64,000 nucleotides of DNA, taken from Moorella sp. E308F. GTDB taxonomy: Bacteria > Bacillota > DSM-521 > Neomoorellales > Neomoorellaceae. The position numbers and the translations under genes are program-made. Where the stretch lies: assembly GCF_006538365.1 (NCBI RefSeq), contig NZ_BJKN01000002.1:331276-395275 (forward strand), written 5' to 3'. Below, piece after piece: positions 26,392 to 55,159 of the stretch (positions within the stretch are counted from its first letter, which is position 1; every line of letters starts with the position of its first letter). Below the pieces are notes generated by a model. It worked only from the letters and a program-made list of their open reading frames with translations. It did no database searches and was not told the DNA's origin.

Positions 26392-26608
26392 AACCCCCGC
26401 CTCCTCCGGTGTTTTGTATACACCATCCTGTCTTCAGGATAACACCTGGAGGAGAAAAATGCAAGGGGAAAATTAAAATTTAGTTAATTATTACTGGCGG
26501 TGGGTTTAGATTTAAATTGGTTTTACAAGGCTTTCTGAATATTAGCTGGCCATAGTTAACGGACGGCGATTTGTAGACAGATTCGCCGTGTGTTAGTAAG
26601 GTAGATAA

Positions 26609-26645
26609 AAATTAAGTCCCGCAAACTTTTGCGGGACTTAATTTT
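26609..26645. terminator. bidirectional terminator, formerly of tRNA-Lys
   Basis: AAGTCCCGCAAA and TTTGCGGGACTT form a near-perfect stem with A/T tracts on both sides, so it can work on both strands. It lies a few bases beyond the CCA end of the tRNA-Lys fragment, where the terminator of the original tRNA gene would be expected. Confidence 0.85.
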
Positions 26646-26648
26646 TCC

Positions 26649-26693
26649 TGGTGCGCCAGGTAGGCTTCGAACCCACGACCCGCTGATTAAGAG
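26649..26693 (-). other. 3' fragment of tRNA-Lys(CTT): attachment site of an integrated element
   Basis: Read on the minus strand, 45 nt match a tRNA from the anticodon loop (CTCTTAA) through the 3' anticodon strand (TCAGCGG), the T arm (GTGGGTTCGAAGCCTAC), the acceptor strand (CTGGCGC), discriminator A and CCA. Upstream of the anticodon loop the sequence stops matching a tRNA: no 5' anticodon strand, D arm or 5' acceptor strand. This is the duplicated part left by tyrosine-recombinase integration into a tRNA gene. An intact tRNA-Lys should lie at the other end of the element, outside the window. Confidence 0.8.
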
Positions 26694-27335: not shown

Positions 27336-28022
27336 TTATATGTTTTCATTTCCCCGTAAAACTCCTTCGAACCTCGCCCTTACCAACAGGTTGTACAGCT
27401 CTGCTCCAGCGTAGAGCCAATCCACCACGGTCCGGAAGCTCTTTCCATAGTAGTAAAGCGCCACCGTGGCTTCATTCACCGTTTTCTGCAACGTCCGTAG
27501 GGGCAGCCCTGTACCGGTAGCTATAACGCGGTTTATATCGTCCATAAGCACCCTGTTCCCGTACACCCTCAGCCTGGGCGTCAACGTCCTCTTCCGCCCG
27601 ATCCGAGTTACATCCGCGCTTCCGTGCAGCTCGACCCACGCCCGTACGAAGCCCCGGTCGTCTAAAGGGCCGTGCGGGTACGGCCTCTCCGGGGCCTTCC
27701 TGGGCGTCCAGCCGTAGCGTTCTAGAATGGTTTTCACGGCGGCCACGTCTGCCGCGCGGGTTATTTTCAGCCGCCACTGTGTACCAGTGTTTGAATGGCT
27801 TTCATGCCCGCAAGATGCTATTCTAAAATACTGTTTAACCACTTCGATATACCATCTGTCGCGGTGGCGGAGCCAATAGCCTTCATCGGATATGGAGAAG
27901 GCACCCCAAAGTATACCCAGTATGTATGCACCCAAATCGGTTGTTGGGTCAAAAATTTTGCATAATCTATCTCCGCATTTTTGAGAGAGGTTCTGCTCAC
28001 GAAGAAGAATATCGTCCTTCAT
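27336..28022 (-). CDS. LAGLIDADG-like (homing-endonuclease-type) protein
   Basis: The 228-residue protein carries AYILGILWGAFSISDEGYWL at about residues 32-51, which has the helix-plus-acidic pattern of a LAGLIDADG motif. A second half contains RVYGNRVLMDDINRVIATGT and YYYGKSFRTVVDWLY, as in the LAGLIDADG_3 type domain. Its start overlaps the stop of the upstream pseudopilin gene (ATGA), so it is translated with that operon. It could be a free-standing endonuclease or a domesticated DNA-binding relative. Confidence 0.5.
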   Translation of the reverse strand: MKDDILLREQNLSQKCGDRLCKIFDPTTDLGAYILGILWGAFSISDEGYWLRHRDRWYIEVVKQYFRIASCGHESHSNTGTQWRLKITRAADVAAVKTILERYGWTPRKAPERPYPHGPLDDRGFVRAWVELHGSADVTRIGRKRTLTPRLRVYGNRVLMDDINRVIATGTGLPLRTLQKTVNEATVALYYYGKSFRTVVDWLYAGAELYNLLVRARFEGVLRGNENI

Positions 28023-28567
28023 TCTCTGCTTGCCAGGTTCCGTGGTAGTATTTTGGTAGCCAAAGTAATGTCGCTTTTTGTATTTACATCGCTGCCCTGG
28101 CCTATTTCTAAAGTTATGCTGACCAGCTTCCCGCTATCAGGTTTTACCATGAAATTCTTTACGTTTCCAGCTATTTGCACCCCGCCGGTTTCATTAATGA
28201 CTACTGACCCGTTGTCTGGATGTACGCTTCTATAAAGTACACCATCATTTAAATAATAGCTGACAACGCTTGTTCCTGCCAGATAGGCGAACCTGCTGTA
28301 ATCCGGCGAATCAAATGTAACCGCCCCGGCGCCCCTTATCCCTTCAACCCTAGCGCCATTATTCGTAAATCCGTCGCAGATTTCTTCCATCACCTTCACT
28401 GCTGCGTCCTGAGTGTTTGTCTGTCTAAAAGCCTTGGTGTTAGCCTGCCAGCCGCGGAGATAGATATCATAGATAGGAATCGCGATTAGCCCGATAATAG
28501 CGACAACAACCATAACTTCTACTAAGGTAAAACCCTTGCTATCCCTTAAATGCTCTCGTAGCATCAA
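28019..28567 (-). CDS. type IV pseudopilin-like protein (PilW/PulJ type)
   Basis: The 182-residue protein has a class III signal: SKGFTLVEVMVVVAIIGLIA, where prepilin peptidase cuts after G and Glu follows at +5. The long hydrophobic helix then leads into a globular domain. It overlaps the neighbouring pseudopilin by 4 nt. It probably assembles into a short pilus or pseudopilus at the cell envelope. Confidence 0.85.
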   Translation of the reverse strand: MMLREHLRDSKGFTLVEVMVVVAIIGLIAIPIYDIYLRGWQANTKAFRQTNTQDAAVKVMEEICDGFTNNGARVEGIRGAGAVTFDSPDYSRFAYLAGTSVVSYYLNDGVLYRSVHPDNGSVVINETGGVQIAGNVKNFMVKPDSGKLVSITLEIGQGSDVNTKSDITLATKILPRNLASRE

Positions 28568-28956
28568 ATCCCCCCTTTATAGAGGAGAAAAGTCAGAGAA
28601 TCAACCATGTTACCGTTCTTATCCAGTTCCAGCGTAACTTTTTTTACCACAGCGCTCCCACACTGGCCCGGCATTGAATTTATCGTGCTGACATTTTGTT
28701 TAAGCGTCCACGCGCTCCCGCCATAGTTAGGATAAGCCGTCTCGCCAACAGGCAGGTTGTCATATCCAGCAGCTTTAATTTCCTCCGCCCGCTGCTGGAG
28801 GAGGTAACTGGCGACAGACCTGTCGCGGCCGCGGTAAAGCATCATGATGCCATTGGTCAGCGCCCCCATAAAAGGTACGAGCACAATTATAAGCAAAGAA
28901 ACCGCAATCACCATTTCTACAAGGGTAAAGCCGTCCTGCTTTCGTCCGCATCGCAT
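28564..28956 (-). CDS. type IV pseudopilin-like protein (PilV/PulI type)
   Basis: From the ATG at 28956 the protein is about 130 residues: RCGRKQDGFTLVEMVIAVSL, a class III signal and hydrophobic helix, then a small domain with QQRAEEIKAAGYDNLPVG, typical of PilV-like minor pilins. GGGGGAATAATTAT precedes this ATG; a 20-codon upstream extension overlaps the previous gene and is unlikely. Confidence 0.82.
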   Translation of the reverse strand: MRCGRKQDGFTLVEMVIAVSLLIIVLVPFMGALTNGIMMLYRGRDRSVASYLLQQRAEEIKAAGYDNLPVGETAYPNYGGSAWTLKQNVSTINSMPGQCGSAVVKKVTLELDKNGNMVDSLTFLLYKGGI

Positions 28957-28960
28957 ATAA

Positions 28961-30544
28961 TTATTCCCCCGCCCAAGAACCGGCCTGGATTTTCCAGGTG
29001 CCATTGCTCCCGCCACCGACGTTCTTCAAGCTTTCATCATAGTTAATAGCTGCATGGTTTTTTAAACTTACCTGCTGGCCTACTACACCACCATTTATTG
29101 TGGCGTTATTGCCAATATTAACCTGGCCAGTCGCATTAAACAGGCCGGCTTTAATGGCGGCATTGTTGTTTACATCCACGTCATGGCTTTTGTCGGTCGT
29201 CAGATAAAAGAGCAGGTTGGCCGCCGGTATGGTTCCCAGACGACAGTTATTGCCCGCGTCTAAATCGCCTTTAATGTAAAAGACTGCCGGTTGCATTTGG
29301 GTTAAAGTAACGCCGTTTTGGAATGAGGCATCGTTGCCGATATACCACGTTGTCATCCCCAAAAGGTTTAAGCTGCTGTTGTTTTCCAGATGCAGGTCTC
29401 TTGAGATGTAAAATGTGACCTGGCCGTTGACTGTAAGGCCGGCATTATTGTCGAGCTGGAAATCTCCGGTCACATATATGTTCGCTGGGCCGGTGATAGT
29501 GGTGCTTTTGTTGTTTTGCAACTCAAAGCTGGTAAAACAGTGGTCGCCGGGCCCCACACCCTGCCCGGGGTTTAACGTTTCCGGGTTCAGGGCCGGTGGG
29601 ACAGCGGGTAGATTGAATGTTATCGCTGGATACTGGTAACCTTCATAATAGCCATCTTCCTCGGGTTGGGCGCTCAAGTCCACTATAGCCTGGGGGAACA
29701 AAGTCTCACCCACATAGTAGACCATCAGGCTTGCCGTATTTTTGACACCCCGGTACGTGCCCGTAGATGTTATTTTTAACTTGTCGCTTCCTGCGGGAAT
29801 GAGCTGGACGCTGTAAGAAGCGTCGCTGCCCATTACCGCAGGGTCGCTGTTGATCTGTGCCGGCTGTTCGCCTTTTTCGATAAGGTGATAGAGGGCATCA
29901 TTAATCCCCGACTCGGCCAGGTAAAGGGCTTTGGTTTTGTTATCCCAATAGGTTGCATTTTTGTAGTTAGTTAGGACCAGAGAATAAATAGCTGTGATAA
30001 GGAATGACAGTATAACTATGACAATAAGGGTTAACGGTAAAACGGCCCCTTTCTTGTCGCGAAGTATTCTGGAGATGGAATATTGCTTTTCTTCCAGCCA
30101 GGAACGGACTTCCCGTGCTATGCCGAAACAAATAAAGACAATACCGGTAAATAAAGCAATATCTGCTAAATTGGCGGCAACCCCAAGATTAGGCAGTAGT
30201 ATGTAATCTACGACGTATCCCTGTATCAGCCAGGATAGGCCGTTGCTAATGGCGCCGCCGGCAGCCAGCCCCGTCCCCAAGTATAATCTGAAATCTTTAT
30301 GGGGTGGATTATACCTTGCAAGGTAGAATACACAGACAATTATTATTGCGAAAAGTAAAATTCGGCCTGCGAAAGAGGGGCCAAAGGGGCAAAAGGGATT
30401 AACTGCTGGCCCGAAGCTTATGCCTTCCAAAATGGTTATTGGCTGGGGAATCATATATCTGGCCGTCAATTTGATTATCTGATCGCAGAGAATAATTCCT
30501 AATCCCAGAAATAGATGATGCATGGGTTTTACATTGTTTTGCAT
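28961..30544 (-). CDS. fusion of a signal-peptidase-II-like (LspA) domain with a PilX-like pilus protein
   Basis: The protein has 527 residues. Residues 1-150 have four membrane helices with DQIIK at 21-25 and the LspA catalytic aspartate pair in GYVVDY (D113) and NLADIA (D128). From 164 a new unit begins with KKGAVLPLTLIVIVILSFLI, the PilX N-terminal helix, followed by YLAESGINDALYHL and a beta-repeat region with many N-rich turns (NNAGLTV, ENNSSLNL, GNNATING), like the DUF7305 surface domain. No start codon or ribosome site occurs at the junction, so the fusion appears real. It heads an operon with two pseudopilins. Confidence 0.75.
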   Translation of the reverse strand: MQNNVKPMHHLFLGLGIILCDQIIKLTARYMIPQPITILEGISFGPAVNPFCPFGPSFAGRILLFAIIIVCVFYLARYNPPHKDFRLYLGTGLAAGGAISNGLSWLIQGYVVDYILLPNLGVAANLADIALFTGIVFICFGIAREVRSWLEEKQYSISRILRDKKGAVLPLTLIVIVILSFLITAIYSLVLTNYKNATYWDNKTKALYLAESGINDALYHLIEKGEQPAQINSDPAVMGSDASYSVQLIPAGSDKLKITSTGTYRGVKNTASLMVYYVGETLFPQAIVDLSAQPEEDGYYEGYQYPAITFNLPAVPPALNPETLNPGQGVGPGDHCFTSFELQNNKSTTITGPANIYVTGDFQLDNNAGLTVNGQVTFYISRDLHLENNSSLNLLGMTTWYIGNDASFQNGVTLTQMQPAVFYIKGDLDAGNNCRLGTIPAANLLFYLTTDKSHDVDVNNNAAIKAGLFNATGQVNIGNNATINGGVVGQQVSLKNHAAINYDESLKNVGGGSNGTWKIQAGSWAGE

Positions 30545-35246: not shown

Positions 35247-38200
35247 TTATCGCTTTACCAGAAGGGAGTGGCGTTTTCGTGCCTGGGCCAGCAGGGCATC
35301 AACCGTCTTTTCCAGGCAATCGTACGGGACCACGTCATTCTCATCAAGATACTCAATCAACCAGCGGCGCAGATTGTTTTGTAGCGCAGGAGCTCTCCAG
35401 AAATCGGTATAGCTGATGTGTTCCCGGATAGTATCTAACATAGTTCGTACATGCCTGGCCAACTGCAAACGCTTTTCCTGGCCAAGATCAACACCGCCGA
35501 AGCCCTCTTTCTCCAAAACGCCCAGGAACGGCTTTTCCGTCCGGGGATCGAGACCGGTACCATCGTCGGGCCGCCCGGCCCGGACCCGATTTACCAGGTC
35601 TTTCATATACTGCTCAAGTTCATCCCAATGTTCAGCAAACTTGTGTAAGATATTCTCCAGGTGCTCGCTAAGTTTCTGGTAATAAACCGGGTCATCATCC
35701 TCATGCTCCCTGATATATTGGCGCAAAGCATGGACCATAGTTGAGGCCCGGGCCTTGCTTGTCTTTTTCTCACCCACTACCTTCGGAAAGTCTTCATCAG
35801 TAACTGATATCGGCGGTATTTTAGGGTCGATACCCCTGGAAACCAGATACCGATCAAGAAGGCTTCTTACTTTGTCGCTGCACCCCACCAGGTTTAAGAT
35901 ACGGTCACGATAAACGTTGGCCGCAGCCTGGTTGATGAAGGCCAGAATTTTCATGTCGTTCATGTAAGGTTGCCCCTCGGGCCGGTACACAAACAGGTCC
36001 ATGCTCTCCAGAAAGCTCTTAAACCTTTGAATAAATTCCGCCCGTATCTTCAGATCACTCAACAAATCCACACAGGCATCGATGTCCCTGATATCAGAGA
36101 TACCCCTGCTATGGAAGACATCTAAGACCAGGCGGTGCCGTTCAGTTAGAAGGGGCAATTCGTCCTCAATTTTGGGGAGCACTCCTTCCACATCTTCCCC
36201 GCTGTATACATCCAGAGCCTCCTTCAGATGGGTACCGATCCCACAATAATCCACCACATACCCGCATTTTTTACCGCCAAAGGTTCGGTTAACCCGGGCT
36301 ATGGCCTGGAGAAGTTGATGCCCTTGCATAAAGCGGTCCAGATACAGAACCTGCTCATTGGGTGCATCAAAACCTGTGATGAGCATATCTTTGACGATGA
36401 GGAAAGCCAAGCCATCCTGGACTGCGGGATCTGGGTGAACCAAGGGTTTCTTAAAACGTATGATGTTGGCCTGCTGTTTTTGTTTGTCAGTAAATTTATC
36501 CCAATCAGAAGGCTGATTCTGTTTGGGGGAGAACACGCCGGCAAATTCCAGCCGCCTAATTGTTTCCTCGTGTCGTTTGGCGCGGATAAGGAACTGGGTA
36601 TCTCTGTCGTACTTTTGAATTTGCTCGTCGGTAAGTTCCAGGTAAGAATCCTGAAAGGCGGCCAATTCCTTCAACAATTCCCGGTGGGCATCCTGAAAGG
36701 CGTCATAATATCTAGCCACGGCAAGACGACTCGAAGCCACCACCTGAGCCTTGAACCCGTTGGGTAGGACCTGATCCACATAGTGGCGGAGCATGTTGGC
36801 TGCTTTGGCCCGGATAAGCTTTTCAGATTCCATAACCGCCGTGGTGGTGGCATATTTCTTCTTGATGGCCTCGATCTCCTCTGGTGTACGATCACTGAAT
36901 AGGTCTTCAAAAAGCTGGTCGAGGGTGCTGGGGCTGTCTACGGCCCCTTTTGTTGTGCGGCCTTCATACTTGACAGGAACGATCACCCCGTCCGCCTCTG
37001 CATCTTTCATGGGATACTTATCAATAAAGGAGCCGAAAATTTCCTCGGTTTTTGGCCTGTCTCCCATTAGAATCGGGGTACCGGTAAAACCAATCAGGGC
37101 GGCGTTAGGTAAGGCCGCTATTAGGTTTTGATGCAGGACATTGCTATGTGAGCGGTGAGCTTCGTCCACTATAACCACGATTTCTTCAGAGGCATTGAGC
37201 ACTTCCATTTTTTTAGTAGGCAGCCGTAGCTTCATGGTCTTACCTTGCGGTTCTTGTTCCGCTTCGGCTATGACCTCGCCGACCGCCTCAGCAAAAACTG
37301 TGGCCTCACGTTCTTCCTGCGCCTTCAGGGCAGCCCGCTCCTGTTCCAAAAACTTTTGGGGATTAAACTCAATAATTTCCGCATCCTCATCAAGTACCTG
37401 CATTTTTTGAATCATACCAAAAACCAGATCTGGACTGTTTCTTCTTAGTAAGCTAAAAAGTTCCTTAATATTGTTAGCCTTATAGATAGTTTCCCCGGTA
37501 AGGGCCGCCGTCTTTTCCAGTTGTTCCTCCAGATCGGTGCGGTCGGTGACTATCACCACCTTAAAGTTCCTTAGCTCTTGGTAGGTCCGTAGCTTGCGCA
37601 CCAGAAAAACCATAGTCAAGCTCTTGCCCGAGCCCTGATAATGCCAAACGATACCACCACGCTGGTCCTTTGTCCCGTGTCGGTTCCTTGTCTGGCCGGT
37701 CAGCAATCGCTGGATAGCCTTATGTACCGCTCTAAATTGCTGGTAACGGCAGACGAGCTTGGTCGTTCGATGTCCTTCTTTCTTGAATACGATAAAATTC
37801 CGTATAATATCCAATAAATGGGTAGGCCGTAGCATCCCCGCCACCAATAACTCCTGGGCGTTCAAAGAATCGACCCCCAGCTCAGCTCGCACCTCATCCT
37901 GGGGTACCGGACTGGTATCTCTCCAGGGAGCAAAAAATTCCGGGGACGCCCCAATGGCTCCTACCCGAGCCTCATAACGATAGGTGGCAATCATAAGCTG
38001 GTTATAGTGAAATAGGCGCTCGGCCCCTTCGGGCTCCCCACCTCTTTGGCGCTGGTTGGAATATCTGAGAAGTTGTTCAATGGCCTCATTCATGGGATCG
38101 GGCCGCTCGGGATTCTTACATTCCACCACCACTAGGGGGATGCCGTTGACAAAGAGCACCAGATCCGGAACAATAAAGCCCTTATTGCCGACCACCCAGG

Positions 38201-38639
38201 GCGGGTCAACCCGGAACTGGTTAATGACCAAAAAATCGTTCTTCTCCGGGTGGCGAAAATCAATATAGCGGCAAATCTGCCCCCGCCCACCGTCCCAATC
38301 CGGCAAACCTTCTACCTCGGTCCCTTTGAGCAGCAGTTCAGTAACTCGCTCATTGGCCTCCATAAGCTGCAACGGCCCCAGGCTTTCCAGGCGGCGGATC
38401 ATGGTGTCAATGCGCGCATCATCCAACCAGGGATTACCCTCATCATCCAGGTTGATCCTGCGCAATGCTTCCCGCAAACGAGGAAGCAGGAGAACCTGGT
38501 GGAAATTCTCACGCTCGGTCAAATAAGGAATGTCGATATCTCCCTCAAGATGTTCCCAGCCCATTTTCACCAGTTGATTAATGAACGGTTTCTCCACCAG
38601 CTCGTACTCTGTTAGACGGTCGACATCAAATAGATCCAT
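35247..38639 (-). CDS. hsdR: type I restriction enzyme, R subunit
   Basis: The 1130-residue protein has an N-terminal endonuclease domain with DLVLFVNGIPLVVVECKNP (Asp and ECK of the PD-(D/E)XK core). The SF2 translocase follows with HYQGSGKSLTM, VTDRTDLEEQ, VIVDEAHRSH and IGFTGTPI, then a helical C-terminus that binds the methylase. It cleaves foreign DNA after ATP-driven translocation. Its ATG overlaps the stop of hsdS (TAATG). Confidence 0.96.
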   Translation of the reverse strand: MDLFDVDRLTEYELVEKPFINQLVKMGWEHLEGDIDIPYLTERENFHQVLLLPRLREALRRINLDDEGNPWLDDARIDTMIRRLESLGPLQLMEANERVTELLLKGTEVEGLPDWDGGRGQICRYIDFRHPEKNDFLVINQFRVDPPWVVGNKGFIVPDLVLFVNGIPLVVVECKNPERPDPMNEAIEQLLRYSNQRQRGGEPEGAERLFHYNQLMIATYRYEARVGAIGASPEFFAPWRDTSPVPQDEVRAELGVDSLNAQELLVAGMLRPTHLLDIIRNFIVFKKEGHRTTKLVCRYQQFRAVHKAIQRLLTGQTRNRHGTKDQRGGIVWHYQGSGKSLTMVFLVRKLRTYQELRNFKVVIVTDRTDLEEQLEKTAALTGETIYKANNIKELFSLLRRNSPDLVFGMIQKMQVLDEDAEIIEFNPQKFLEQERAALKAQEEREATVFAEAVGEVIAEAEQEPQGKTMKLRLPTKKMEVLNASEEIVVIVDEAHRSHSNVLHQNLIAALPNAALIGFTGTPILMGDRPKTEEIFGSFIDKYPMKDAEADGVIVPVKYEGRTTKGAVDSPSTLDQLFEDLFSDRTPEEIEAIKKKYATTTAVMESEKLIRAKAANMLRHYVDQVLPNGFKAQVVASSRLAVARYYDAFQDAHRELLKELAAFQDSYLELTDEQIQKYDRDTQFLIRAKRHEETIRRLEFAGVFSPKQNQPSDWDKFTDKQKQQANIIRFKKPLVHPDPAVQDGLAFLIVKDMLITGFDAPNEQVLYLDRFMQGHQLLQAIARVNRTFGGKKCGYVVDYCGIGTHLKEALDVYSGEDVEGVLPKIEDELPLLTERHRLVLDVFHSRGISDIRDIDACVDLLSDLKIRAEFIQRFKSFLESMDLFVYRPEGQPYMNDMKILAFINQAAANVYRDRILNLVGCSDKVRSLLDRYLVSRGIDPKIPPISVTDEDFPKVVGEKKTSKARASTMVHALRQYIREHEDDDPVYYQKLSEHLENILHKFAEHWDELEQYMKDLVNRVRAGRPDDGTGLDPRTEKPFLGVLEKEGFGGVDLGQEKRLQLARHVRTMLDTIREHISYTDFWRAPALQNNLRRWLIEYLDENDVVPYDCLEKTVDALLAQARKRHSLLVKR

Positions 38640-39358
38640 TACTCCCCCTCCTCGTCCAAGGGTACCCTTACTTTTCCGGTTAAAAGATCGTGCATGAGGC
38701 CGGATTTAAGCTTTATAAGTTTACCGAGATAACGTTCTTCAGTATTGATCTGATTTTCAAGTGAACTCATTACGGATACAATATTATCCTGTTCTTCCAA
38801 TGTGGATGGAACAGGAATCAACATTGCTTTTAGACTTTTTAAACTGATAGCAGGCTGGGCAGTTTCGGTTTTAATAAGGTTTATTTTGCCTGTATCGTAA
38901 TAGTACTTAAGTAGCAAATCTAAATAAGCAGTACGGCATTTATTGTTATCCACGGAAATCTTAAGTGCATTTCCGGCTAAAACCCCGATTGGATGGTCAC
39001 TTGGTAAAATAGCACAAGAACCGCATTGGGCTCCTATTTTTGCCATAACGATATCCCCTGGTTCCACTGCACTTCTCTTTTGGGCAAGGAATAAGGAAGT
39101 GTCAACATAAACATAAGAATTAGCTATAAATTTACCAGTAGTTACAAATCCACTTTGAATTACCGGAACTCCTTGCTCTTTGTAGTGTATGGATTTTAAA
39201 TTACTTCCAAATGGACCATCTACAATTGCATGGGGCCTGTCGGCTGCTATTGTTTGGATTGTAACACAATCCCATCCTATCGGTATTCTACCCAACGGCG
39301 AATCCTTAAACTGCTCCGGATGAGCTACCGGGTCGCGTAGTTCCCCGTTTTCATCCAA
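38639..39358 (-). CDS. hsdS: HsdS specificity subunit, C-terminal half (second target-recognition domain)
   Basis: This half encodes the second target-recognition domain (DGPFGSNLKSIHYKEQGVPV, then PGDIVMAKIGAQCGS) and the final coiled coil (EERYLGKLIKLKSGLMHDLL, TGKVRVPL). A possible TTG start lies at 39358, but the reading is open in the same frame back through IKAGLLHDLLTRG to an in-frame TAA at 39398-39400. It is thus the second half of one hsdS of 428 codons. It may be made by reinitiation, by readthrough, or not at all. Confidence 0.85.
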   Translation of the reverse strand: MDENGELRDPVAHPEQFKDSPLGRIPIGWDCVTIQTIAADRPHAIVDGPFGSNLKSIHYKEQGVPVIQSGFVTTGKFIANSYVYVDTSLFLAQKRSAVEPGDIVMAKIGAQCGSCAILPSDHPIGVLAGNALKISVDNNKCRTAYLDLLLKYYYDTGKINLIKTETAQPAISLKSLKAMLIPVPSTLEEQDNIVSVMSSLENQINTEERYLGKLIKLKSGLMHDLLTGKVRVPLDEEGE

Positions 39359-39397
39359 TCCGCGGGTTAACAGGTCGTGGAGAAGCCCGGCTTTGAT

Positions 39398-39922
39398 TTA
39401 CTTAAGTTTGGCAATAAGTTGTTCAGTTTTACTTATTGCATTATCAATATTTTGTAGGATCTTAATTATTTTGCCCTGCTCACTAATGTTACATAACGGT
39501 ATTTCAATTTCCCTTAACTCGTTTTGATTAAGTTTTGACCGAGTACCGCCTCTAATGTAGAATCTGATATCTTTGTGAACCAAATTATAAAAAACCCATT
39601 GATTAGTTGTAATTTCTTTTCTAGCTCTTAAAACATGGGCATGATTATTAACCCATGACTTGCCGCTAATGACATAAGCTATTGGGCGAGTCTCATATTC
39701 GTCAAAATAACCACCATCTTCGGCAATCAAAACAAGTTCTTCATCAAAGATGTAATCATTAATCCAGCCTTGTTGCCCGTTGGCGCCATAATATGGTATG
39801 GTACCTTGTCGTTTCCAACGTTCCTCACTATTAACTGGAATTCGTTGGTTATCTAATATATCGCAACAATCGCCTATCCGAATGTATTGCCAATCATTTG
39901 GTAATTGGGGTTTATAAAGCAT
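39398..39922 (-). CDS. hsdS: HsdS specificity subunit, N-terminal half (first target-recognition domain), ends at a premature TAA
   Basis: From the ATG at 39922 about 174 residues encode the first target-recognition domain ([16 protein letters not shown] ... [15 protein letters not shown]) and most of the central coiled coil ([24 protein letters not shown]). A TAA then interrupts the frame where an intact subunit continues into the second half. It overlaps hsdM by 11 nt. Half-sized HsdS proteins can pair to form symmetric specificity units in known systems, so loss of function is not certain. Confidence 0.85.
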
Positions 39923-42581
39923 ACCCCAACCTCCGCAACCAGTCGGCCAGCTCTGCCGCCGCAGCGTCCCGCTCCTGCTCGATTTCACCCAGTGTAACCC
40001 GGTACTTATCCCACCAGTTTTCGAAAACCGCTATCACTTCTCGCCGGTGTTCTGCAATATAGCGTTCCAATTGCTGCTCTAATTCTTCCCTGGCTATATC
40101 CAGCACCAATCTTTCACAATCCTCTGGGGTCAACTTCTTACGCGCCTGATCCATGCGTTCGATTAACTGATTCTTTAAATCCCTTAACTGTCGTTTTGCC
40201 TCCTTTAATGCTTCTTTTACGTCAAGATAAGGTTGAAGAATGGCGGTAAGACGTTCTATTTCCCTTTCCACCGGTGCTACAGCGGCCATCAATTCATCTC
40301 TTTCCCGGATGAGGTGGCTGGCATCCTGGCCTTTTTTCTGTAAAGCGGCGATAGATTCACCGGACCTGATGTTCGGGCCCCGGTTCAATTCCTTAATACG
40401 TGCCAGTTGATTCTTGATGTTTTCTTTCAGATCCTTGATATAGTCTTCCAGTTCCTTGGCGATGTTTCTCTTGTTATCTCCGTTCTCCTCATCATCTTCT
40501 TCACCGGTATCCTCGGACCAGCCTTCTAAGCCTTCACCTCTTTCATAAGCCTCCTTCTGGGCTTGAAGTTCGGCCAGGCGGGCCTCGGCATTCTTTATCT
40601 CATCCAGGTATTCCGGAAGCAGGCGAACGATCAGTTTATGCTGCAAAGGGTCAAAGCCATTCTTTCTCTCTTCTTCATCCTCCAGGGCACTTCTGATGCT
40701 CTCGCACCAGCTATCCACCAGGCCCTCAAAACCCTGGGCAGCCAGAGTTTTTAGATCGTACTGTATTTCACCCCACCAACTGGCTACCACCCCTGCCACT
40801 TTGTAACGGTCAAGCATACCTACCGGGAGCATGGCTTCCGCAAAGGAGTCCAGCCATTCCTTCCGCAAGGCAAAAAAGTTACGGTCGGCAACCAAACGAC
40901 TCATTGCTGCCGAGTGTTTCTCCCACCACTCTTTCAATGCGCTACGCATTTCTTGCTCCCGGCGCACAACACCCGGATCTTTTTCAATGAGGGAGCGGAT
41001 ATCTTCCCTGGAGGCCAAAGATGGTGCAAAATCAAAATATCGCTCATCTTTGTCCACCAGCAGAGCAGCCGGGTCCAGACCGTGAGCGGCCAGCAATTCC
41101 CGCTTTGCTTCCACTTCATACCGGGGTATCCCACCCTGCAGGTGGGCCCGGACATCCTGGGGTTCGGGCGGTGGAGTATTGTCAGCATAACGGCGGATAT
41201 TCAAGTTATAGTCGTTTGCCTCCAATTCTTCTCTTGTCACCACCGCGGCATAGCCTGGAACAGGTGCAAAAGCTTCATAGGTAGACACTATTTTCTCAAT
41301 GTGCTCTGGTCTTAAGTAGTTCTGGGCCCTTCCTGCCTGGTACTCAGCTTCAGCATTGATAAACAAGACCTTTCCTTTCCGCTCGGGAGGCTTGCTGCCA
41401 GGAGAACGCATAACCAGAATACAGGCGGGGATCCCGGTGCCGAAAAAAAGATTATTGGGCAACCCGATAACCGCCTCCAACTGGTCCTGTTCGATAAAAT
41501 GCTTGCGGATTTCTTTTTCCACGCCGCCCCGGAACAACACCCCGTGGGGCATTACGGTGGCCACGATGCCGCCGGCGCGCAGCACTGCCAGCATGTGCTG
41601 GACAAACATCAAGTCGGCCTTTTTGCCTTTTTCTGGGCACCAGTGAGTAAAGCGTTCCGGAAAATCAATCCCTTCCTTACTGTAGTTCTGGCTAAAGGGC
41701 GGATTGGTAATTATCCGGTCAAAACGCATCAGCTTCCCGTCCTCAATATGCAAAGGACGGGCAAGTGTATCTTCATTTCTAATATCAGCATCTTCGATGC
41801 CGTGCAGGAGCATATTCATCTTGCAAATGGACCAAACCCCGCCATCGCTCTCCTGGCCATAAAGGCGAAGGTTCCTGGTATCTCCCCCGGTTTCCTCTAC
41901 ATATTGGTGAGCCTGGATAAGCATACCGCCGGAACCCACACAAGGATCATATACCCGCATGTCCGCCTGGGGCTTGACCAGGCGTACCATAAGCCGCACC
42001 ACGTCCCGGGGAGTGTAGAATTCTCCGCCCTTTTTCCCGGCAGACTCGGCAAACTGACCAATCAGGAATTCATAGGCCGCCCCGAGTAAGTCGGGGAATT
42101 CAAAGTCCTCGTCGCGAAGCCGGTACTTATCAAAATGCCGTATTAAATCTCGCAATCTCTGGTCAGGTATCCGGGATTGCCCTACCTTCCTGGTAAAATC
42201 GATGTGCGTTAAAACTCCGTCCAGTTTATCGAGATTGGCCTCCTGAATACTCTGAAGGGCCTTGTTTAAAACATTGGCCACGTCTCCATGCTGCTCTTTT
42301 TTGATATATTCCCAGCGGGCACGCTCCGGAACCCAGAAGGCACGGCCCGAATAAAAGCTCGGGTTTTCCGCCCGTTTTTTTGCCTCTTCTGGGCTGCGTC
42401 CGAGCTCGATCTGGCGTTGGTAAATGGCATCGTACTGCTCATCAAAAACGTCTGATGCCCGCTTTAAGAAGAGCATGCCGAAGATGTATTCCTTGTACTG
42501 GGAGGCGTCCATCTTACCCCGCAGGATGTCGGCTGCAGCATACAAGTGGCGGTTTAATTGTTGTAATGTTAGCTTAGGCAT
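39912..42581 (-). CDS. hsdM: type I DNA methyltransferase, M subunit, with extended coiled-coil C-terminus
   Basis: The 889-residue protein has an HsdM_N helical domain ([20 protein letters not shown]), SAM motif [10 protein letters not shown], and the N6-adenine motif NPPF. It is longer than the usual 500-550 residues: from about 480 on it carries long charged helices (for example [39 protein letters not shown]), predicted coiled coil. I choose the ATG at 42581, 6 nt after AGGTG. It heads the hsdM-hsdS-hsdR series. Confidence 0.93.
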
Positions 42582-42780
42582 AAGGCACACCTTCATATTT
42601 CTTAGCTTCTTTATTTCTCTTTAGTAAAGCTTAACTTTTTAGCATCCCAAAATCTTTAAAAGCTTGTTTGATAATAATCAATTTTATTCGGTGAACAAGA
42701 GTTAGATCTCTTTGCCGGTTCAGTTAATTAACCGTTGATTTCTTTTTTTAACTTCTCCCTTATCATTTAATGCCAAAAAG

Positions 42781-47171: not shown

Positions 47172-48155
47172 CTATGTGTTCTTAAATATCCTATCAACTT
47201 GTTGACGCACCTTTTTTTGGTCAGGCTCTTTCTCAAGGGCTTTTAGATCTGTTACGATTTTATCTATACGATCAGCATACCAGTCGAGGCTTTCAATTCC
47301 GTCAATTAAGTTATTATTGACAAAATCAAGAGGGTCATTAATAACACCGGAGCGAAACGCCGAAGCCAGATGAGACAAAGTTTCATAAACATTCAAGGCC
47401 AATGATGAGAACCAGTAATTTGACATGCCATACTGGACGATGGCAGTCTCAATAGCGAACGAGGAAACTTTGAAGTTGTAGGCCGTACGGATATACTTGT
47501 ATAAACGGATTACGTCGCGAAAATACTCTTTATTCTTTGCTACAGAATTAAGAAGATCAATATCTTCTCTGGGAGCAGTTAAAATCCAACTGTTATTAGC
47601 ATCTCCTTTAGGAATATCGTAAAAAATCCTACCATTGGAGCTTTGAAAAATACCGGCCGGCACCAAGTCTATTTTGAGGTTTTTACTCTTGATTATTGCC
47701 GTAACCGCTTGCCCATTACGCTCTGGGGCTTCTCCCCCGAAGCTGCTAACAACTGTTTGAATAACACCCTTGAGCCAGTTGAGCATCTTGGCAGGACTTA
47801 CTCCTGACCCATCTGATTTCTTATATTTGTCATAGTATCTTGGGTTGGGTGACACTGAGCCGAGGCCTTTTCCTATTTCCACCCCACCGCTAACAAAATG
47901 CCCGGTATTACAATCAAGTACCACCAGGATATCAAACTCATCTACAGTGGCAACCTTGGTTCTTTTAAAATAGCTGCCAAATCGGACAAACGGCTCAGGT
48001 TCATAAAGCACCGGTTCGTCAATACGCCTGGCGATCTCATTCTTGATACGGTCCAGGAACCATTCTCTACTTGCTACTGCCGAACTAATATCTGACTGGC
48101 TCAATTTGATTTCATCTGCGATAAAATCAGCAATTGCCTTTGAAACATCGCCCAT
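47172..48155 (-). CDS. CD-NTase (cGAS/DncV-like nucleotidyltransferase), CBASS-type
   Basis: From the ATG at 48155 (AGGAGG 9 nt upstream) the protein is 327 residues. It has FGSYFKRTKVATVDEFDILV at 59-78: the GS of the polymerase-beta fold, the acidic pair D72/D75, and a third acidic residue in LKIDLVPAG (D163). This is the active site of cyclic-oligonucleotide synthases of the SMODS/CD-NTase group. It is predicted to sense phage infection and make a nucleotide second messenger for the adjacent membrane effector. A 38-codon upstream extension overlaps the neighbour and is unlikely. Confidence 0.85.
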   Translation of the reverse strand: MGDVSKAIADFIADEIKLSQSDISSAVASREWFLDRIKNEIARRIDEPVLYEPEPFVRFGSYFKRTKVATVDEFDILVVLDCNTGHFVSGGVEIGKGLGSVSPNPRYYDKYKKSDGSGVSPAKMLNWLKGVIQTVVSSFGGEAPERNGQAVTAIIKSKNLKIDLVPAGIFQSSNGRIFYDIPKGDANNSWILTAPREDIDLLNSVAKNKEYFRDVIRLYKYIRTAYNFKVSSFAIETAIVQYGMSNYWFSSLALNVYETLSHLASAFRSGVINDPLDFVNNNLIDGIESLDWYADRIDKIVTDLKALEKEPDQKKVRQQVDRIFKNT

Positions 48156-48168
48156 AGTTTTATTCCTC

Positions 48169-48699
48169 CTAACTATTAAGTTCCTCATGGGTGTACTCTT
48201 CTTCACCTTCATTAAATCCCTTTTTGGCCTTTTTATAATCATTGTCGTTCGTTGGGAAGGCTTCTGCATCCTTTACTACTTGGTCATAAACTTTGGCGAG
48301 ACGCTCCAATTTTTCTCGCAATGCGTTTAGATCCATCTCCCCGTCCAACACATAAGCCTCAAGGCGACTGCATTCATTTGCAATTTCGAGATAACGTGAA
48401 GCAATGGAGCGATGTCCCTCGATGACCTTTGGGTAATTGCAAAGTGTTTGTAATAAGCTAAGGAAAGCAGCGATTAGGGATAGGAAGGCGCCAGCCCATT
48501 GCATGGCTATGGGAAGCGAAATGCTTAAATATGCAAATAAAATTGATCCTAAAAAGAGGTTAATCAGGATAGTAAATACACTAAATGTAAAATTATATTT
48601 CGCTATTCGATCAGCAGCGTTATAGTGCTTCTTTTTGCCAAACAGTGCGTCAACCCGAAGTTCTTTTACTTTCTTTAGGGTATAGGGGGCGTCGATCAC
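48169..48699 (-). CDS. SLATT-domain two-helix membrane effector
   Basis: The 176-residue protein has two membrane helices (about 37-60 and 66-87) preceded by a basic region and followed by a helical cytoplasmic tail with GHRSIASRYLEIANECSRLE. This is the SLATT layout, predicted pore-forming effectors that accompany CD-NTases. It is the first gene of the pair; its stop lies 13 nt before the nucleotidyltransferase ATG. It is expected to damage the membrane when the second messenger binds. Confidence 0.82.
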   Translation of the reverse strand: MIDAPYTLKKVKELRVDALFGKKKHYNAADRIAKYNFTFSVFTILINLFLGSILFAYLSISLPIAMQWAGAFLSLIAAFLSLLQTLCNYPKVIEGHRSIASRYLEIANECSRLEAYVLDGEMDLNALREKLERLAKVYDQVVKDAEAFPTNDNDYKKAKKGFNEGEEEYTHEELNS

Positions 48700-53269: not shown

Positions 53270-55159
53270 GTGCGCCCGGCATGGGCGTTAACTTAGTGGT
53301 GAAAGTCCACTGCAGGCGAGGCAGCACGAGTCTGCTAGCCAAAGGCAAGGGTGCCCATCGCGAGGTGGGATCTGAAGGAAGCCGGAGGCAAAGCCACGGC
53401 CCGATGAACAAGAACCCCATAGGAGGCTAGACCATCTGGATGAGCTGGCGAAACACAGCGAAATCCCAGGCTGCCAAGGGATGGTAGAGTATATGGGGCG
53501 GGCGCGGGGCGAAGGTTAACGCTCTTACCCGGGGAGGCCTGCCGGATAAGCCAGGAAAAGCTGGCAACCCGTGTCGAAAGGCACGGCTGAACCGGCAGGA
53601 GTCAGCAGAAGGCATAGTACCCTGGGGGTCATGAACTCCAGGGGAAGGCCCGAACATCAAGTCAGAGGTGAGACCGATGCGTTCGCGAGAAGGGCGAAGA
53701 CAGCAGAAACCCCCGGAAGGGGCCTGCCCGCGGGAGGAAGTGGTGAAGCCACAGGGGACCGCGGGAGGGCCGAGTTCTTCTCCGGCACAAAGCGGGACGT
53801 CACCTCGCGGAGGCCAAGGTAGCGGCCTGATGGAACAGGTGGTGGAAAGGCAAAACATGCTGGCCGCCCTAAAGCGGGTAGAGCGGAACGGAGGCGCACC
53901 CGGCGTGGATGGCATCCCGACCGAACGGCTTCGGGACCAAATCCGCGCCGAATGGCCGCGTATCCGGGAAGAACTGCTCGCGGGAACCTACAGACCAAAG
54001 CCCGTGCGCCGGGTCGAAATCCCGAAACCCGGGGGAGGCAAACGGATGTTAGGGATACCCACCGTAATGGACCGCCTGATCCAGCAGGCACTCCTGCAGG
54101 TATTGACGCCAATCTTCGAGCCGCAGTTTTCAGAAAGCAGTTTCGGGTTCCGACCCGGAAGGAGAGCCCACGACGCGGTAAAGAAGGCACGTCAGTACGT
54201 AGAAGAAGGATACGAATGGGCGGTAGACCTGGACATCGAGAAATATTTCGACCGGGTAAACCATGACACCCTCATGGCCCGGGTGGCCCGGAAAGTAACG
54301 GACAAGAGGGTACTTACCCTTATCCGCCGCTATCTTACCGCAGGCGTCATGGTAAATGGAGTGGTCATGGAGACGGTAGAAGGAACGCCCCAGGGTGGAC
54401 CAATAAGCCCGTTATTAGCCAACATTCTACTAGACGACCTGGACAAAGAACTGGAAAAGAGGGGCCACAAATTCGTCCGTTACGCCGATGACTGCAATAT
54501 TTACGTCAAAAGCAAACGGGCGGGAGAAAGGGTCATGGCAAGTATCCGTAAGTTCCTGCAGGAACGGTTGAAGCTCAAGATAAACGAGGAAAAGAGTGCG
54601 GTAGACCGGCCGTGGAAACTGAAATTCCTGGGGTTTAGCATGTATAAAGCCAGAGCAGGGCAAATCCTTATCCGCTTAGCACCGCAAACTATCGACCGGG
54701 TGAAAACGAAAATCCGGGAGATAACTGCCCGGAATAAACCCGTAAGCATGGCCGAGCGCATAGAGCACCTGAACGCCTATTTGGGCGGATGGATAGGATA
54801 CTTCGCCCTGGCCGACACGCCCAGCACTTTTAAGAACATAGAAGGCTGGATGCGGAGGAGGCTGCGCATGTGCCTCTGGAAGCAGTGGAAGCGAGTACGG
54901 ACCAGGTATCGCGAACTACGCGCACTGGGTTTACCAGAATGGGTAGTACATGAATACGCCAACGCTCGCAAAGGGCCATGGCGGATGGCCCATGGGCCAA
55001 TGAATAGAGCCCTGGGCAATACCTACTGGCAGTCCCAGGGCCTCATGAGCTTAACCGAACGCTATCTCAGTCTTCGTCAAGCTTGGTGAACCGCCGGATG
55101 CGGACCCGCATGTCCGGTGGTGTGAGGGGACGGGGGCTAGCCGCCCCCTCCTACTCGAT
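53270..55159 (+). mobile_element. group IIC intron with encoded maturase
   Basis: The 5' end GTGCGCCCGGCATGGGCG follows the GUGYG rule. About 400 nt of conserved ribozyme domains precede the maturase frame. Downstream of the frame, GAACCGCCGGATGCGGACCC and GCATGTCCGGTGGTGT form domain V, and GGACGGGGGCTAGCCGCCCC begins domain VI. The 3' boundary CTACTCGAT ends at 55159. The insertion directly after a terminator stem is the class C target preference. Boundaries are judged from motifs and could be off by a base or two. Confidence 0.88.
53830..55089 (+). CDS. ltrA: group II intron reverse transcriptase/maturase
   Basis: The 419-residue protein contains RT blocks GGAPGVDGIPTERLR, FGFRPGRRAHDAV, AVDLDIEKYFDRVNHD, EGTPQGGPISPLLANILLD and the catalytic FVRYADDCNIYV, then the maturase (X) domain with FLGFSMYKARAGQILIRLAP. 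No C-terminal endonuclease domain follows, as usual for class C. An upstream in-frame extension to 53668 lies in ribozyme sequence and is unlikely to be translated. Confidence 0.93.
   Translation: MEQVVERQNMLAALKRVERNGGAPGVDGIPTERLRDQIRAEWPRIREELLAGTYRPKPVRRVEIPKPGGGKRMLGIPTVMDRLIQQALLQVLTPIFEPQFSESSFGFRPGRRAHDAVKKARQYVEEGYEWAVDLDIEKYFDRVNHDTLMARVARKVTDKRVLTLIRRYLTAGVMVNGVVMETVEGTPQGGPISPLLANILLDDLDKELEKRGHKFVRYADDCNIYVKSKRAGERVMASIRKFLQERLKLKINEEKSAVDRPWKLKFLGFSMYKARAGQILIRLAPQTIDRVKTKIREITARNKPVSMAERIEHLNAYLGGWIGYFALADTPSTFKNIEGWMRRRLRMCLWKQWKRVRTRYRELRALGLPEWVVHEYANARKGPWRMAHGPMNRALGNTYWQSQGLMSLTERYLSLRQAW

Follow-up and report, generated by a model that had tools for sequence, protein, structure and literature searches.

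We identified in the thermophilic acetogen Moorella sp. E308F a single gene in which a divergent homologue of the lipoprotein signal peptidase LspA is joined in frame to a PilX-type minor (pseudo)pilin, and the joint is genuine, since it is kept in a second species. The gene (28961..30544, on the minus strand like all features of its operon) lies in the analysed window, a stretch of 64,000 nucleotides. It is one open frame of 527 codons, as an earlier reading made from the sequence alone had described, and the frame carries two Pfam domains well above chance, namely Peptidase_A8 at residues 16-140 (51.1 bits against a cut-off of 25, E 2.2e-13) and DUF7305 at residues 405-508 (63.6 bits against a cut-off of 27, E 2.8e-17). 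With a probability of about one half, we consider the LspA module to be an anchor or giant leader that replaces the short leader of a PilX-type minor (pseudo)pilin, rather than an ordinary peptidase.

The sequence-only reading had proposed a search for homologues with both domains, and had held that homologues always encoded as two genes would point to a sequencing indel. In fact, a second genome of the genus, recorded as Moorella thermoacetica DSM 21394, has a full-length orthologue of 527 amino acids (88% identity) in an unbroken single frame, without frameshift. The fusion genes of the two species were separately sequenced and share 86% nucleotide identity, with identical frame and length. 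Comparison of the two shows purifying selection on the LspA part (dN/dS 0.15) and a dN/dS of 0.12 for the head, while the linker and pilin helix (residues 149-215) show a dN/dS of 0 and 100% amino-acid identity. No in-frame ATG, GTG or TTG is found between codons 90 and 237 of the Moorella sp. E308F fusion or between codons 108 and 237 of that of the sister species. Thus neither species has a standard start within codons 108-237 from which the pilin half with its helix could begin independently, and the earlier remark that no start codon marks a second gene at the junction holds in both. An assembly or sequencing artefact, at which an indel has joined two genes, could appeal to a more distant third copy (in genome G021, described below) that has frameshifts and has lost its 5′ end. 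Yet the two matching frames, the dN/dS of the LspA part and the second gene lacking a start codon leave this explanation with next to no credibility, and an origin from two genes by an indel is ruled out by the intact orthologue together with the missing internal start. Separately, synonymous divergence from the sister-species locus (L056) is uneven across the operon (28019-30544), dS being 0.79 in the LspA part, 0.14 in the linker and helix, 0.09 in the first pseudopilin and 0.39 in the second, which suggests recombination inside the operon.

The fusion heads an operon with two class III pseudopilins, both positive for N_methyl, and the tight spacing bears out the arrangement read from the sequence. 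The first (28564..28956, GspI/PilV-like; N_methyl 27.3 bits, with a weak GspI match) has its ATG 4 nt past the fusion stop. It is overlapped by 4 nt by the second (28019..28567, GspH/GspJ-like; N_methyl 35.4 bits, with GspH/GspJ matches). The fourth gene of the operon (27336..28022) overlaps the second pseudopilin by 4 nt and encodes a protein of 228 amino acids, to which no family could be assigned in Pfam and NCBIfam profile searches and in which LAGLIDADG-like motifs were noted by eye. It occupies the same position in the sister species with 90% identity (L056), and a rearranged partial copy of it was seen elsewhere (G005:C29, L072).

The predicted LspA-fold four-helix domain spans residues 8-152 (30089..30523). 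For comparison we used 25 canonical LspAs of related genomes, aligned with both fusions in an alignment of 27. The catalytic Asp118 and Asp136 of S. aureus LspA (PMC6952399) correspond to Asp113 (30206..30208) and Asp128 (30161..30163) of the fusion, and these two, together with D21, Q22 and K25, align with invariant columns of the canonical proteins; the Pfam match and these columns confirm the LspA-like domain with its DQ and Asp pair that had been read from the sequence. Fourteen residues are highly conserved in the LspA active site (PMC6952399), and the fusion keeps 10 of them (D21, K25, N49, G97, N101, V111, D113, N125, A127 and D128). The other four are replaced, Gly54 by Phe51, Asp109 by Ser104, the essential Arg110 by Trp105 (30230..30232, adjoining Ser104) and Phe132 by Ala124, although each of the lost residues is found in 25/25 canonical LspAs; Trp and Ser stand at the Arg110 and Asp109 columns in both Moorella fusions. 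Retention of the pocket is selective, since the fusion agrees with the canonical proteins at 16 of 25 near-invariant columns, but at just 15 of the 97 variable columns. In a structure model the protein forms four helices with short strands, a pilin helix, a beta-sheet and a right-handed beta-helix. Residues 1-158 of the model match LspA structures (Foldseek E 1e-6, VIA Z 14.6-15.5), a match that is not independent because LspA sequences in the model's alignment guided it; the alternative model built from the two fusions alone reached a pLDDT of 43 and is unusable as an independent control of the fold.

The module is a divergent LspA homologue rather than an lspA, as judged from its sequence. 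It falls short of the NCBIfam lspA equivalog TIGR00077 (25.6 bits against a cut-off of 73.95), it has lost the four residues named above, it lies outside the canonical LspAs at the end of a very long branch (about 7 changes per site) whose placement is unsure, and the host genome has a canonical lspA elsewhere, in its usual place next to rluD. The same branch, with its unsure placement, led us to reject a recent duplicate of the host lspA as the source of the domain. The fused part has probably ceased to work as a lipoprotein signal peptidase of the usual kind.

An active but altered aspartyl peptidase could cut a lipoprotein or membrane-anchored pilus partner at the outer face, with the head guiding the substrate. 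The catalytic dyad, Asn49, Asn101, Asn125, Ala127, Asp21 and Lys25, present in both species, the selective keeping of near-invariant columns and the purifying selection all speak for such an enzyme. However, the replacements at Arg110 (Trp), Asp109 (Ser), Gly54 (Phe) and Phe132 (Ala) speak against it, as in S. aureus LspA the R110A mutant has 0% activity (PMC6952399 Table 1) and G54P is likewise at zero, though G54A is normal; the dyad mutants D118N and D136N of that enzyme are inactive as well (PMC6952399). Moreover, no lipobox-bearing substrate was seen within the operon and the equivalog score is far below its cut-off, so that we regard this activity as unlikely, though worth keeping in mind. 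A pseudo-enzyme deserves a similarly small share of belief: the old pocket, in which Asn, Lys and Asp are kept and the Arg essential for activity is lost, would bind lipoprotein precursors or lipids without cutting them and so connect the pilin with a lipoprotein or the membrane. Such binding is putative, and it counts against this reading that no partner lipoprotein was identified.

The second half of the protein aligns with PilX-type relatives from residue ~150 onward. These relatives of residues 150-527 share a basic stretch with Gly as its last residue, followed by a hydrophobic helix and a motif of the form ...ALYLAESGIN, and Gly166 is invariant in the 14 aligned proteins. Pfam PilX_N (PF14341) is matched by 8/14 of them and not, at E 1, by the fusion itself, where helix position +5 is Leu instead of the classical Glu and no N_methyl match is found; the Glu is likewise missing at +5 in the aligned relatives. 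The earlier label of a PilX-like protein therefore stands as regards the alignment and the shared Gly166, and does not extend to a PF14341 match or to the residue at +5. The N-terminal helix covers residues 167-222 (29879..30046), delimited by the alignment with the relatives and by model helices at 168-198 and 202-222. Residues 223-527 (28964..29878) form the pilin beta-sheet and an Asn-rich right-handed beta-helix head, according to the Pfam match and the model, in line with the Asn-rich beta-repeat domain noted before. The modelled head matches the tapirin C-domain (Z 13.5-14.0) and other beta-helices too, and is weakly similar to ComZ (PDB 6qvi, Foldseek E 0.04).

After the last LspA helix, residues 143-166 are basic, with 7 K/R, and the linker of residues 153-166 (30047..30088), predicted to be cytoplasmic, ends in KKG, with a predicted prepilin-peptidase site after Gly166 (KKG|A, within ...RDKKG|AVLPL). 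Type IV pilin leaders measure 6-51 residues (reviewed in PMC6916266), and those of 12 non-fused PilX-type relatives are at most ~47 residues, as limited by upstream stop codons. In the fusion, 166 residues with four predicted helices precede Gly166. Since the LspA C-terminus feeds directly into the conserved Gly site, the module takes the place of the leader peptide. The host has a full pilus operon including a prepilin peptidase; nevertheless, with Leu rather than Glu at +5, cleavage by it is a guess.

LspA has an N-in/C-in topology, with both ends cytosolic, and the leader of a prepilin is removed at the cytoplasmic face of the membrane. Taken with the basic segment, this topology would leave KKG|A on the cytosolic side and the head on the outer side. 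We therefore propose that an LspA-derived four-helix module was grafted in place of the short leader of a minor (pseudo)pilin headed by a beta-helix. Its C-terminus would leave the basic KKG|A segment in the cytosol, from which the pilin helix would span the membrane with the head outside, as in the normal prepilin topology. The part of the module would be that of an anchor or pro-domain by which the pilin is inserted and kept at the membrane. The prepilin peptidase of the main pilus operon may cut after Gly166 and release the pilin, which could then join the two downstream pseudopilins at the filament tip; if uncut, the protein would be a permanently anchored subunit of tip or base. Incorporation into a filament is a predicted part of this explanation and may take place.

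That the fusion itself processes pilins, as had been suggested earlier, agrees poorly with this geometry. The LspA dyad faces the outer membrane surface (PMC6952399) and the leader is cut on the cytoplasmic side, which leaves the module badly placed for pilin processing, and the needed Arg is a Trp. An anchoring role for the LspA part, the other suggestion made at the time, is the better fit, to which we add that the module sits at the prepilin leader position. The canonical LspA in the host, the loss of the Arg, Asp, Gly and Phe, and the matched position of Gly166 in the relatives all favour the anchor or leader. Against it, the dyad and 10/14 active-site residues are more than a pure anchor needs, and the broken relative in G021 also retains the Asp-pair motif. 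A bolder reading is a pilus-dedicated active intramembrane aspartyl peptidase carried by a tip pilin, which would cut or load a partner at the outer face during pilus assembly, with the prepilin peptidase in turn removing it as a leader of four helices; we find this distinctly unlikely, more so than either an altered peptidase or a pseudo-enzyme.

The fusion occurs in 2/11 genomes of the genus Moorella. The other nine are without it and each has one canonical lspA, with only a partial match in one genome that is 58% complete. A broken copy was found in G021, a genome from a different family within the order. There the end of an LspA domain (GVDFWLGQSVAANAADLATVAG) continues in frame as a PilX-type helix; the Asp-pair motif is kept at about a third identity, and the head follows at 35% identity. 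This gene (G021:C30, L049 40-785) has frameshifts, and its 5′ part is lost against a head-to-head truncated divergent neighbour. Since it sits on a contig of just 5.5 kb in an assembly of 590 contigs, decay and assembly error are both possible, and an LspA profile search of that assembly gave no match. Besides the two Moorella and this remnant, no LspA-pilin fusion was found in two heavily overlapping draws of 398 and 397 genomes of the phylum, which contained many PilX-type proteins and many LspAs, and no homologue was found in the plasmids, phages and viral contigs searched. Long-frame LspA candidates (six from the phylum search and one more) proved to have upstream extensions only, without a C-terminal fusion, and were set aside.

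The sequence common to every Moorella genome stops at ~26478 of the window. Shortly after it, a 51-nt 3′ end of tRNA-Lys(CTT) (26643..26693, minus strand) is 98% identical to the intact tRNA-Lys and is a likely attachment-site repeat; the intact gene is found 181 kb away at C2:538.8 kb, beside a tyrosine integrase. In relatives, tRNA-Lys comes immediately behind the shared sequence or lies no further than about 2-10 kb from it. The left edge of the accessory region thus falls at 26478-26693 of the window (L075 446-1971). The operon is thus placed a short way within the border of an accessory region that has been integrated here and may take in the whole 181 kb as one element. A type I restriction system (35247-42596), a group II intron and further mobile genes are found in this region too, and its integration accounts for the patchy distribution of the fusion. 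The group II intron reverse transcriptase lies at 53668-55089, in a region whose sequence is repeated many times in G008. Near the restriction system, 47172-48269 gives weak SMODS and Mab-21 nucleotidyltransferase matches and may encode a CD-NTase. A second pilus-like cluster was observed between the two tRNA-Lys copies (L055, G000:C2:408000-420000), with a PilT-like ATPase, pseudopilins and a pilin of 651 amino acids with extra domains. The patchy presence in 2/11 genomes, the location just inside the tRNA-Lys integration edge and the broken copy in another family could also be those of a decaying mobile-element gene that is currently functionless. However, the frame is open and dN/dS is 0.12-0.15 in both halves, which makes this reading very unlikely.

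The fusion can be compared with three known systems. With LspA (PF01252; PDB 5dir, 6ryo) it shares the catalytic Asp pair, the DQ..K motif and the pocket Asn residues, and its model, guided by LspA sequences, has four helices with beta-cradle strands; unlike LspA, it has no equivalents of Arg110, Asp109, Gly54 and Phe132 and is joined to a pilin. PilX_N minor pilins with DUF7305 heads, tapirins and ComZ resemble it in the Gly-site pilin helix without Glu5 and in the beta-helix head. The PilX-type relatives are also found in cassettes of three genes, together with GspI- and GspJ-like pseudopilins, as at the fusion, whereas their leaders do not exceed about 47 residues and have no LspA module. 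Modular type IV pilins, such as S. sanguinis PilB, are common, and 264 architectures were recorded in a survey (PMC8179133). They combine a pilin module with a domain that is not specific to pili, and here an LspA-like domain is found on the same chain as the pilin. The fusion is like them in carrying a non-pilus module on a minor pilin, and also in its bulky head, the beta-helix. That survey took proteins with an N-terminal pilin motif (PMC8179133), so that a membrane module ahead of the motif falls outside it. No report of an LspA-pilin fusion was found in the literature searched, from which most subscription journals were out of scope; within that range, the earlier claim of a new architecture is upheld by a conserved in-frame fusion. 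As read from its sequence, it is a rare fusion, with an LspA-like membrane module in the leader position of a modular pilin. In known modular pilins the added module comes behind the N-terminal pilin motif, and function is gained through modules that follow the pilin helix, whereas here a whole predicted membrane-enzyme fold lies in front of it. Nature thus offers a test of the limits of prepilin insertion and processing, and of whether the LspA fold can take on a role other than that of a lipoprotein peptidase.
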